Made by a program: the position numbers and the translations under genes. 48,593 nucleotides of DNA from Acidimicrobiia bacterium (GTDB taxonomy: Bacteria; Actinomycetota; Acidimicrobiia; Spongiisociales; SHLN01): the NCBI GenBank assembly GCA_013002865.1, contig JABDLU010000207.1, positions 1 to 48,593 on the forward strand. Direction: 5' to 3'. Position 1 is the stretch's first letter. Each line of letters begins with the position of its first letter. Below are positions 3,217-44,691 of the stretch, piece by piece. The notes below the pieces were generated by a model. The model was not told the origin of the DNA and did not search any database. It was given only the letters and a program-made list of their open reading frames with translations.

Positions 3217-3290
3217 GTTGCAGGTTGCCAGTTTCACGTTCCAAGCCGGAAGGCATCAGGCAATCAGCAATCAGCAATCAGCAATCAGCG
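3217..3290. repeat. 7-bp-period degenerate tandem array (gttgcag / ggcatca / caatcag type)
   Basis: gttgcag-gttgcca-gtttcac-gttccaa, then ggcatca and repeated caatcag units. Confidence 0.85.
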
Positions 3291-3296
3291 GGGATA

Positions 3297-3378
3297 CCTC
3301 CCCTGCGAGCGCAGCGAGTGGGGGAGGCAAGGAGGGGGGTGGGCAACCATGCGGGTTGCTGAGCGCGTTCCTGTGCTC
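3297..3378 (-). repeat. Palindromic repeat element R1, copy 1
   Basis: cctcccctgcgagcgcagcgagtgggggaggcaaggaggggggtgggcaaccatgcgggttgctgagcgcgttcctgtgctc; near-identical at 11783-11864, related inverted copies at 26111-26535. Confidence 0.85.
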
Positions 3379-3387
3379 TTGAGTGAA

Positions 3388-3420
3388 GTTGCCAGTCGCA
3401 GGTTGCAGGTTGCAGGCCAG
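3388..3420. repeat. 7-bp-period degenerate tandem array (gttgcag type)
   Basis: gttgcca-gtcgcag-gttgcag-gttgcag-gcc. Confidence 0.8.
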
Positions 3421-3492: not shown

Positions 3493-3527
3493 CGGTGCCC
3501 GATGCCCGACGCCCGACGCCTGATGCC
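3493..3527. repeat. 7-bp tandem array (cgacgcc type), 5 units
   Basis: cggtgcc-cgatgcc-cgacgcc-cgacgcc-tgatgcc, exact 7-bp register. Confidence 0.88.
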
Positions 3528-3570
3528 GGGAACCCTTCCGGTTCCTTGGGAGTTGCTCCGCAACTCCATG
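3528..3570 (+). repeat. Double-hairpin repeat element R2, copy 2
   Basis: GGGAACCCTTCCGGTTCC + TTG + GGAGTTGCTCCGCAACTCC + ATG. Confidence 0.85.
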
Positions 3571-11782: not shown

Positions 11783-11864
11783 CCTCCCCCGCGAGCGCAG
11801 CGAGTGGGGGAGGCAAGGAGGGGGGTGGGCAACCCTGCGGGTTGCTTGGCGCGTTCCTGTGCTC
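11783..11864 (-). repeat. Palindromic repeat element R1, copy 2
   Basis: cctcccccgcgagcgcagcgagtgggggaggcaaggaggggggtgggcaaccctgcgggttgcttggcgcgttcctgtgctc. Confidence 0.85.
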
Positions 11865-11889
11865 CATTTCGACGGCCAGAGAGTGTCTA

Positions 11890-12282: not shown

Positions 12283-12301
12283 GGGAGGAGGGTAACGGCC
12301 G

Positions 12302-12386
12302 GGCACCGGGCATCAGGCACCGGGCATCAGGCATCAGGCATCAGGCATCAGGCAGAGTTGCACGTTGCAAGTTCCAGGTTGCAAGC
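12302..12386. repeat. 7-bp tandem array (ggcatca type) running into gttgcaa-type units
   Basis: ggcaccg-ggcatca-ggcaccg-ggcatca x4-ggcagag, then gttgcac/gttgcaa/gttccag/gttgcaa. Confidence 0.9.
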
Positions 12387-12410
12387 CAGAGGGGGGCTGG
12401 GCTGTGCGAG

Positions 12411-12451
12411 TGGAGTTGCGGAGCAACTCCCAAGGAACCCGAAGGGTTCCC
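12411..12451 (-). repeat. Double-hairpin repeat element R2, copy 3 (inverted)
   Basis: tGGAGTTGCGGAGCAACTCCCAAGGAACCCGAAGGGTTCCC. Confidence 0.85.
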
Positions 12452-12485
12452 GCCATCGGCCAGAGGGTCCGTTTGTTGGTTAGCC

Positions 12486-12575
12486 GGCGACTGGCGACCG
12501 GCTATCGGCTGTCGGTCAGAGGGTCCGCTGGGGTTTGGCCGTTGACCGGCGACCGGTGACCGGCGACCGGCGACC
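12486..12575. repeat. Paired 7-bp arrays flanking a GGTCAGAGGGTCCG...GGCC spacer
   Basis: ggcgact-ggcgacc-ggctatc-ggctgtc; spacer; gttgacc-ggcgacc-ggtgacc-ggcgacc-ggcgacc, ending at the erpA stop. Confidence 0.88.
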
Positions 12576-24604: not shown

Positions 24605-24680
24605 CAGCGGATCCTCCTCGTGTTAGCTGCGCCGACGTTACCGGCGAGAACGCGAATCTGCCAGGAAAAATAAGGAAGGG

Positions 24681-24771
24681 GTCGGTGGTCGGTGGTCAGT
24701 GGTCGGTGGTCAATGACCGGACGGGGAGGATCTGGTTCTGGCCGTTGACAGTCGACCGTTGACCGTTGACG
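24681..24771. repeat. Paired 7-bp arrays flanking a spacer with GGCC/TCTGG motif
   Basis: gtcggtg-gtcggtg-gtcagtg-gtcggtg-gtcaatg; spacer accggacggggaggatctggttctggcc; gttgaca-gtcgacc-gttgacc-gttgacg; ends 4 bp from the NfeD-like stop. Confidence 0.9.
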
Positions 24772-26040: not shown

Positions 26041-26110
26041 CCCAGAATGTTACGGCGGCAAAGGGATTCGTGGGAGGGGGGGAGGTGGAACTTGGAACTC
26101 CAACCGATAG

Positions 26111-26251
26111 CACGGGAACGCGCTCTCACCCCCCTCCTAGCCTCCCCCACCGAAGGCGGGGGAGGAACCAGAAACGCCCGCCTCGCAAACGATGCCGAGA
26201 GGAATCACCAGTGGAGGCGGAGTGGGGCGGAGGGAACGACGCAGACAGGAG
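26111..26251 (+). repeat. R1-family element, tandem unit 1
   Basis: cacgggaacgcgctctcacccccctcctagcctcccccaccgaaggcgggggagg... about 141 bp. Confidence 0.85.
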
Positions 26252-26390
26252 CACGGGAACGCGCTTTCACCCCCCTCCTGGCCTCCCCCACTGCGTGGGG
26301 GAGGAAGAACAAACGCCGTGCTCGCAGACAATGCCGAGAACGATCACCGCTGGAGGCGGAGCTTGGCGGAGAGAACGGCCTAAACAAGAA
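26252..26390 (+). repeat. R1-family element, tandem unit 2
   Basis: cacgggaacgcgctttcacccccctcctggcctcccccactgcgtgggggagg... about 139 bp. Confidence 0.85.
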
Positions 26391-26535
26391 CACGGGAACG
26401 CGCCTAGCAACCCGCAGGGTTGCCCACCCCCCTCCTAGCCTCCCCCACCTTCGGCGGGGGAGGAACCTGAAACGCCTGCCTCTCAAACGATGCCGAGAAC
26501 GATCACTGTTGGAGGCGGAGCTTGGCGGTAGGCAC
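26391..26535 (+). repeat. R1-family element, tandem unit 3 (long form)
   Basis: cacgggaacgcgcctagcaacccgcagggttgcccacccccctcctagcctcccccaccttcggcgggggagg... Confidence 0.85.
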
Positions 26536-26563: not shown

Positions 26564-26598
26564 GGCGACGGGTGACCGGCGACCGGCGACCGGACTAC
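26564..26598. repeat. 7-bp tandem array (ggcgacc type), 5 units
   Basis: ggcgacg-ggtgacc-ggcgacc-ggcgacc-ggactac. Confidence 0.85.
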
Positions 26599-26607
26599 CC
26601 TCCCTCC

Positions 26608-26988
26608 ATGGCACGATTCCTCGTGGTGGCGGACACTCCCTGGGTGATCAACGACGTGCACGCGGCGCTGAGCCGGCCGGGTAACGAGCTGCGCGACCAC
26701 GCCGACCCGCGCACGGTGGTGGGGGCGGCGGCCGAGTTCGAGCCCGATGTCATCCTCATCGACCTGCAGGTTGCAGAGATGGGCGGCATGGCGATGACGA
26801 GGGCGTTGAAAGAAGCCGCCCTGGCCGACGACTTCCCAGACATCCCGGTTGTTCTGCTGCTCGACCGGAGCGCCGACGCCTTCCTGGCCAAGCGGGCGGC
26901 CGCCCGGGCGTGGGTACACAAGCCATTTGACGCGGCTGAGCTCCGCAGCGCCGTGGCCGGCATCCTGGAGACGCCCGTCGAGGCGTGA
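26608..26988 (+). CDS. Stand-alone response-regulator receiver domain protein
   Basis: FLVVADTPWVINDV...PDVILIDLQVAEMGGMAMTRAL...WVHKPFDAAEL; ATG at 26608. Confidence 0.82.
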   Translation: MARFLVVADTPWVINDVHAALSRPGNELRDHADPRTVVGAAAEFEPDVILIDLQVAEMGGMAMTRALKEAALADDFPDIPVVLLLDRSADAFLAKRAAARAWVHKPFDAAELRSAVAGILETPVEA

Positions 26989-32592: not shown

Positions 32593-32653
32593 ACGATCCT
32601 CCTCGTTAACCCTGCTCGCCAGCGTAGCGACGACTTTCGCGGTCTGCAGAGCC

Positions 32654-32744
32654 GGTCGCCCGTCCCCCGTCCCCGGTCGCCCGTCCCCCGACGCCCGACG
32701 CCCGACGCCCGTCCCCCGTCGCCGGTCCCCCGACGCCCGTCGCC
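32654..32744. repeat. 7-bp tandem array, 13 consecutive in-register units
   Basis: ggtcgcc-cgtcccc-cgtcccc-ggtcgcc-cgtcccc-cgacgcc-cgacgcc-cgacgcc-cgtcccc-cgtcgcc-ggtcccc-cgacgcc-cgtcgcc. Confidence 0.95.
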
Positions 32745-32765
32745 CCCACTGCTGGGGACGGGGGT

Positions 32766-33512
32766 CTACCCGACGGGCGGCAGGGTGAGGGTCTCGCCGG
32801 GGTAGATGAGGTCGGGGTTGCCGGAGCGGATGGTCGACCGGTTGGCGTCGATGACCGTGACCCAGTAGCGGGCCACCTCACGATCATCGAAATTGGTTCG
32901 CCCCAGGACGCGCTCCAGGTGCTCCTCGGCCAGGCTCCACATGTGGTCGCCCCGCCGGACAGTCACGGTGTGAGCAACAGTGCCGTCCAGCTGCTCCTCG
33001 AACAGCAGGGTTTCGACGGGGTCAGGTTCAGGCCGTATCGGGAGATGGGGAGGAAGCACCGGCGATTCGTCGGGCCGCTCCGTCCCGGGCGGTCGTAGCT
33101 GGCCGTCCGGTCCGATATCCACCACCACCGTGGCGTCAGACGCCCCACCGGCAATCGCCGGGGCAACCGAGCCCGTGACCGCCGAAACGGCGATCGAGAT
33201 GGCGAGGGCCCGCTGGGTGAGGCGGCGGATGGCCGGGACGGTCACAATCCGTGCGGCCCGCATGAGCCCGGGACTACCACTGACCAGCGCACCGGCGTAG
33301 CCCGCCGTTGAGATGAGCAGCCAGTAGGCGATGGCGAGCGCCACCAGCAGCAGCACGGCAGCCACCACGTCTTCGTAAGGGCTCGAATCCAGCCACTGGC
33401 CGAAATCGGACCACTGCACAGCGAAGCCATCGAGGCGGGACAGTGAGTGGAGACCCGCCACCACAGCGACCTCGAGCATCAGGAGGCCGGTGAGGCGAAG
33501 CCGCTCACTCAT
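32766..33512 (-). CDS. Membrane protein with C-terminal LysM domain
   Basis: TM segments; VRRGDHMWSLAEEHLERVLGR...YWVTVIDANRSTIRSGNPDLIYPGETLTLPP. Confidence 0.83.
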   Translation of the reverse strand: MSERLRLTGLLMLEVAVVAGLHSLSRLDGFAVQWSDFGQWLDSSPYEDVVAAVLLLVALAIAYWLLISTAGYAGALVSGSPGLMRAARIVTVPAIRRLTQRALAISIAVSAVTGSVAPAIAGGASDATVVVDIGPDGQLRPPGTERPDESPVLPPHLPIRPEPDPVETLLFEEQLDGTVAHTVTVRRGDHMWSLAEEHLERVLGRTNFDDREVARYWVTVIDANRSTIRSGNPDLIYPGETLTLPPVG

Positions 33513-44622: not shown

Positions 44623-44626
44623 GTAG

Positions 44627-44691
44627 GTCGACGGTCGACTGTCGACTGTCGACGGCCAAAACCGTCCCCTGTCGGCTTTCGGCTTTCGGCC
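44627..44691. repeat. Paired 7-bp arrays flanking a GGCCAAAACCG spacer
   Basis: gtcgacg-gtcgact-gtcgact-gtcgacg; GCCAAAACCGTCCCCT; gtcggct-ttcggct-ttcggcc-AGAATCGG. Confidence 0.9.

Follow-up and report, generated by a model that had tools for sequence, protein, structure and literature searches.

What kind of element is a run of seven-base units that changes in sequence and keeps its register? Such a run lies at 32654-32744 of the window, by which we mean the whole stretch of 48,593 nucleotides analysed here, taken from a draft genome of an Acidimicrobiia bacterium. The locus asks whether the run belongs to a class of arrays, how units of seven bases multiply, and which heptamers do so.

A heptamer array in strict register

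The sequence-only reading had described a strict 7-bp array at 32654-32744, and the statistics bear this out. TRF delimits the array as 32651-32745 with period 7, 13.6 copies, 80% matches and 0 indels; its scores at the multiples 21 and 42 exceed the period-7 score. Lag-7 identity is 67/84 against 35.9 ± 3.7 in shuffles of the array's own letters, with a maximum of 51 in 5000 such shuffles, and the best lag-7 segment scores 37; across 200 copies of the window generated by a Markov model the maximum is 14. Identity is approximately 80% at each of lags 7, 14, and 21, and 29-43% at the remaining lags up to 20. The 13 units at 32654-32744 read, in order, A B B A B C C C B D E C D, where A is GGTCGCC, B is CGTCCCC, C is CGACGCC, D is CGTCGCC, and E is GGTCCCC. 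Variable units in strict register had thus been read correctly, with five unit types rather than the four originally listed. A search of the whole genome for three tandem copies of the focal unit type, GWCSCCS, gives 92 matches on one strand and 90 on the other, against 0 for the reversed control.

Variation among the focal units is limited to three positions and to C/G or A/T exchanges, and most units fall outside the purine/pyrimidine (RY) class RRYRRYY discussed below. In both respects the focal array is unlike the other arrays. It may be a hybrid of GGTCGCC and GACGCCC families.

The gene at 32766 has its 3' end about 20 bp from the array. The label "LysM gene" previously given to a neighbouring gene is weakly supported, as its PF01476 match (E=0.025, 15 bits) is under the 20.9 cut-off; the C-terminal ~75 residues of the putative product recur in many relatives. 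A role of the focal array as RNA structure or terminator was rejected: its structure is not above that of shuffles (z=0.96), and no promoter- or terminator-like site and no Rfam match were found there.

Intergenic arrays across the genome and its relatives

About ten heptamer arrays, the focal one included, occur in the window (Table 1). Lags 4-30 across the window yield segments at 7, 14, 21, and 28 only, and no lag-7 segment reaches threshold in Markov shuffles.

Table 1. Arrays and associated features; positions refer to the window unless another locus is named.
Feature	Position	Strand	Unit or remark
Heptamer array	3260..3289	.	GCAATCA
Short heptamer array	3398..3416	.	GCAGGTT
Heptamer array	3496..3527	.	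TGCCCGA/CGCCCGA
Heptamer array	12299..12354	.	CCGGGCA and TCAGGCA
Heptamer array	12544..12575	.	GACCGGC
Heptamer array	24680..24711	.	GGTCGGT/GGTCAGT
Heptamer array	24742..24770	.	CCGTTGA
Heptamer array	26567..26593	.	GACCGGC; 14 bp before gene at 26608
Focal heptamer array	32651..32745	.	13-14 units, five types; TRF, lag-7 statistics
Heptamer array	44626..44653	.	GGTCGAC/TGTCGAC; 3 bp after stop codon
Short heptamer array	44672..44690	.	TCGGCTT
TACCTCCCCCGCNNAGGNGGGGGAGGCAAGGAGGGGGGTG...GCGCGTTCCTGTG modules	26109-26403, 3295-3380, 11785-11870		also L062, L065, L072
GGAGTTGCGGAGCAACTCCCAAGGAACCCGAAGGGTTCCC module	3530-3570 and 12405-12452		also L062
Array / -10-like word / start codon	L063 18294-18310; window 26593-26610; L079 9410-9431		
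Cyanobacterial inverted array pairs	L266 44801-44883 and 46630-46817; L268 12542-13109		Nostoc punctiforme plasmid

The source genome, whose nearest named relatives by glnA are Acidimicrobiia MAGs, is a 2.92 Mb draft in 224 contigs. Of this, 520 kb were sampled, and genes were predicted there with a simple finder based on codon usage; pattern counts cover the whole genome. The sample contains 49 lag-7 segments in spacers and 0 in genes, and lags that are not multiples of 7 are almost empty in its spacers. Since part of the sample was picked for holding the focal pattern, array density is possibly somewhat high, while the restriction to seven and to spacers is independent of that choice within the 520 kb. 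Autocorrelation of 41 kb of spacer DNA gives z=6.8 at lag 7 and at most 2.4 at non-multiples. The arrays are longer than expected by chance and over-represented in spacers, two marks of heptanucleotide LSSRs. The proposed class of 7-bp-period intergenic arrays is therefore real, and the lag-7 excess reaches beyond one array, across the sampled genome and into relatives.

Units differ from array to array (GGTCAGT, GGCATCA, AGTTGCM, CCGGCGA, CTAACGA, GACCGTT, GCCGATT, and more), and one spacer can hold several successive arrays, each with a different unit. Arrays often lie within ~20 bp of start or stop codons; no preference for start codons was found. Many contigs start or stop within arrays, and this coincidence with contig ends in draft genomes means that arrays probably break short-read assemblies.

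Some other features of these spacers were recorded. Dispersed hairpin-bearing modules (TACCTCCCCCGCNNAGGNGGGGGAGGCAAGGAGGGGGGTG...GCGCGTTCCTGTG), REP- or MITE-like, adjoin heptamer arrays, and a second recurring module, GGAGTTGCGGAGCAACTCCCAAGGAACCCGAAGGGTTCCC, consists of two perfect or near-perfect hairpins side by side. By eye, -10-like words (TATCTT, TACCCT, TAGCGT) directly follow some arrays ~6 bp ahead of start codons, an arrangement that, judged from sequence, points to leaderless transcripts in which the array would occupy the -35 position. An inverted (dyad) layout was dropped as a general rule (14 inverted vs 10 direct) and is suggestive at single loci; a keto-strand polarity at gene edges was weak (53/86, p=0.04) and was likewise set aside.

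Genomes of family f7 likewise carry 7-only, almost wholly intergenic arrays, with other units, and cyanobacterial plasmids have arrays of almost only period 7. In 642 kb of assorted bacteria and close relatives, three arrays reached threshold. Array content varies within the source genome's genus, with many arrays in G002 and few in G003. The pattern (GGTCRGT)3 is present in 15/138 genomes of the order, in 9/10 species of genus g9, and in 0/4 of the source genome's genus mates.

The spacer behind an mgtE-like gene was compared among g9 species, in most of which the flanking protein is 93-95% identical. In four species this spacer holds TAGTTGG in one, two, two, and three copies, three further species have arrays of one unit type each (GGTCAGT, AGTGGGC, and AACTAGC), and in an eighth the spacer is nearly absent. 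Because these orthologous spacers vary in copy number and unit, we conclude that whole units are gained and lost, and that one unit gives way to another over the time that separates species. Whole-unit copy-number change between relatives, a further LSSR feature, was found in these g9 spacers.

Purine/pyrimidine class of the units

When units are treated as cyclic and strand-symmetric, 32/56 distinct units fall into the class RRYRRYY, compared with 8.6 expected from shuffling the letters of each unit, and the share is similar in two families taken separately (21/35 and 10/17). The signal in the purine/pyrimidine code is z=-7.6 at lag 2 and z=+7.3 at lag 3; strong/weak and keto/amino codes showed no comparable preference among the units. 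The share of the class climbs with array length, from 57 through 66 and 75 to 83%.

In a forward test, new units with the exact letters of GGTCAGT were searched for as three tandem copies in 138 genomes of the order, with the reversed control sequence used as a second test unit each time. The class units GATGGCT, TCGGTAG, CTAGTGG, and GGTGATC were found in 6, 9, 3, and 0 genomes, respectively. Among the non-class units TTCGGAG was found in 1 genome, and GGATGCT, TCGTAGG, GTGTAGC, CGATGTG, and GAGGCTT in 0. The totals of 18 genome matches for four class units and 1 for six non-class units give a Fisher p=7e-7, which treats related genomes as separate though kinship makes them non-independent; counted by genus, p=5e-5. 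As the class test units are closer to units already seen than the non-class controls are, descent is a partial confound of the test, and shared descent may explain part of its result.

Descent is also the main rival for the rule itself: one ancestral heptamer would have spread and diverged by transitions, which keep the RY word. Many units are indeed one substitution apart, and the lack of a comparable strong/weak or keto/amino preference is what transition drift predicts. However, neighbouring units within arrays differ by transitions and transversions in a ratio of 153:135 (29:45 in family f7), and transversions at this frequency should scramble the class. Moreover, representatives more than one substitution apart are still in RRYRRYY in 11/20 cases vs 3.2 expected, and the climb of the class share with array length also argues against descent. 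That transition-only descent accounts for the enrichment is a possibility we take seriously, while judging it the less likely outcome.

A universal rule is unsupported, as only 2/17 cyanobacterial plasmid arrays are in the class; of the units published elsewhere, TAACTGA and GTGATTA are within it, and GGGAATC and GGGGAYT are outside. What is new here is that most units share one RY word, RRYRRYY, and that this word is tied to which heptamers form arrays.

Origin of the arrays and relation to known repeats

The 7-only periodicity, the near-absence from genes, the exact 7-bp copy differences, unit replacement, and RRYRRYY enrichment are all directly supported. We propose that the arrays are, with reasonable probability, genome-wide heptanucleotide repeats that change by whole 7-bp units via slippage, drift by point mutation, and are confined to spacers. 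Growth and shrinkage would most likely reflect slipped strands during replication or repair; point mutations between gains and losses would let the unit sequence drift. Because unit gain and loss combined with point mutation yields changing units in strict register, the earlier assertion that changing units would not be expected of slippage was too strong, and the exact 7-bp differences between orthologous spacers speak against it. Confinement to spacers can be attributed to the shift in reading frame caused by a 7-bp change within a gene; selection against such frameshifts would keep genes clear of arrays.

The RY rule would act at the expansion step. A unit of the form RRY+RRYY, shifted by 3 or 4, reads nearly alike in purine/pyrimidine terms, so that strands sliding to the 7-nt register would pass half-registers with purine opposite pyrimidine at 5/7 positions, and these could ease a 7-nt slip by lowering its barrier. 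More speculatively, one physical cause might underlie both seven and RRYRRYY, namely an enzyme of replication or repair, or a protein coating the DNA, that works in a 3.5-bp purine/pyrimidine register. Such a register is a third of a helical turn, and purine blocks spaced 3 and 4 would be amplified whatever the bases. The modest excess of transitions within arrays counts against the slippage explanation, as do the mostly off-rule focal array and the low share of the class in cyanobacterial plasmid arrays.

MutS_V was undetected in 20/20 genomes of the order (G000 included), array-rich and array-poor alike, while the same search found it in 11/14 control genomes. The order thus appears to be without MutS, and this absence may be permissive for arrays. 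Loss of MutS as the sole cause was rejected, since members of the order with few arrays are without it too. Methyl-directed repair is reported to deal well with loops of 1-3 bp but poorly with longer loops (PMC4060949). Taken together, the array-poor genomes without MutS and the poor repair of longer loops mean that MutS absence does not account for seven.

The data can be explained without any cis function. A functional reading, in which the arrays act in cis as tandem sites for a protein, or an RNA-level regulator, that reads a 3.5-bp RY rhythm, and in which selection maintains them near gene ends, is unlikely in our judgement. Their proximity to start and stop codons and a unit rule independent of base identity beyond purine/pyrimidine are consistent with this idea, as is a polarity in the source genome, where GTC-type units favour the left half and GAC-type units the right half of array-bearing spacers (38/52, p=0.001). 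This polarity was defined after viewing the data and is tentative, being significant in the source genome only; elsewhere it is weak (23/36 in family f7, 7/11 in G002). In addition, the same conserved gene pair has other units or no array in sister species, and, as noted above, the focal array shows no RNA structure beyond that of shuffles and yielded no promoter- or terminator-like site or Rfam match.

Less probable still are cut-and-fill duplications of 7 bp, in which target-site duplications by a transposase, or 7-nt overhangs left by a nuclease and then filled and joined by Ku/LigD end joining, build arrays by repetition. Such events would produce a step of exactly 7 bp whatever the sequence; Ku was detected in most of the array-rich genomes, and dispersed repeat modules adjoin arrays. 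However, Ku was undetected in array-bearing G090 and G099 (incomplete, 90% and 73%, respectively), the array-poor G009 and G016 have it, and inspection by eye revealed no element with 7-bp duplications on its flanks. Chance, codon structure, or an assembly artefact can practically be dismissed, for although the genome is a draft, Markov shuffles give no such segments, genes of the source genome are free of arrays, and arrays recur in independent assemblies of many species from several families.

Heptamer repeats are reported to be the commonest intergenic period in prokaryotes, with function unknown (PMC6344855), and polymerase slippage was proposed for heptanucleotide LSSRs (Mrazek 2007, as cited in PMC4679880). 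The dominance of period 7 among intergenic tandem repeats is shared with the arrays described here; the difference is that here one genome has dozens of units, several per spacer, under an RY word. TAACTGA direct repeats of Beggiatoaceae, Cyanobacteria, and Bacteroidetes are likewise intergenic heptamer arrays, with 7-nt-step indels (there between close strains) and contigs ending in repeats (PMC4679880). However, they have one dominant unit where many occur here, and their start-codon preference was not found here; no array recorded in the window or in the sampled part of the genome has TAACTGA as its unit. GGGNATC-type G-quadruplex heptamers of Xanthomonas and Nostoc are also intergenic arrays spread over the genome (PMC4692102), but their units are purine tracts with G runs and belong to a different RY class, whereas most units here are without GGG.

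The suggested resemblance to cyanobacterial STRRs holds for the kind of element, tandem heptanucleotides in spacers, and sampled Nostoc and Trichormus plasmids are also period-7. It does not extend to common descent: in the comparison, made via plasmid arrays, units and RY classes are other than those here, and units differ even between sister species. Cyanobacterial arrays were seen as inverted pairs at both spacer ends or flanking a small gene (Table 1).

No paper in the literature searched brought Acidimicrobiia together with intergenic tandem repeats. Heptamer arrays as such were already known, and it is the multi-unit, rule-bound arrays in Acidimicrobiia that are new. With a sequence rule that predicts array-forming heptamers across an order of Acidimicrobiia, the question of why seven becomes answerable.
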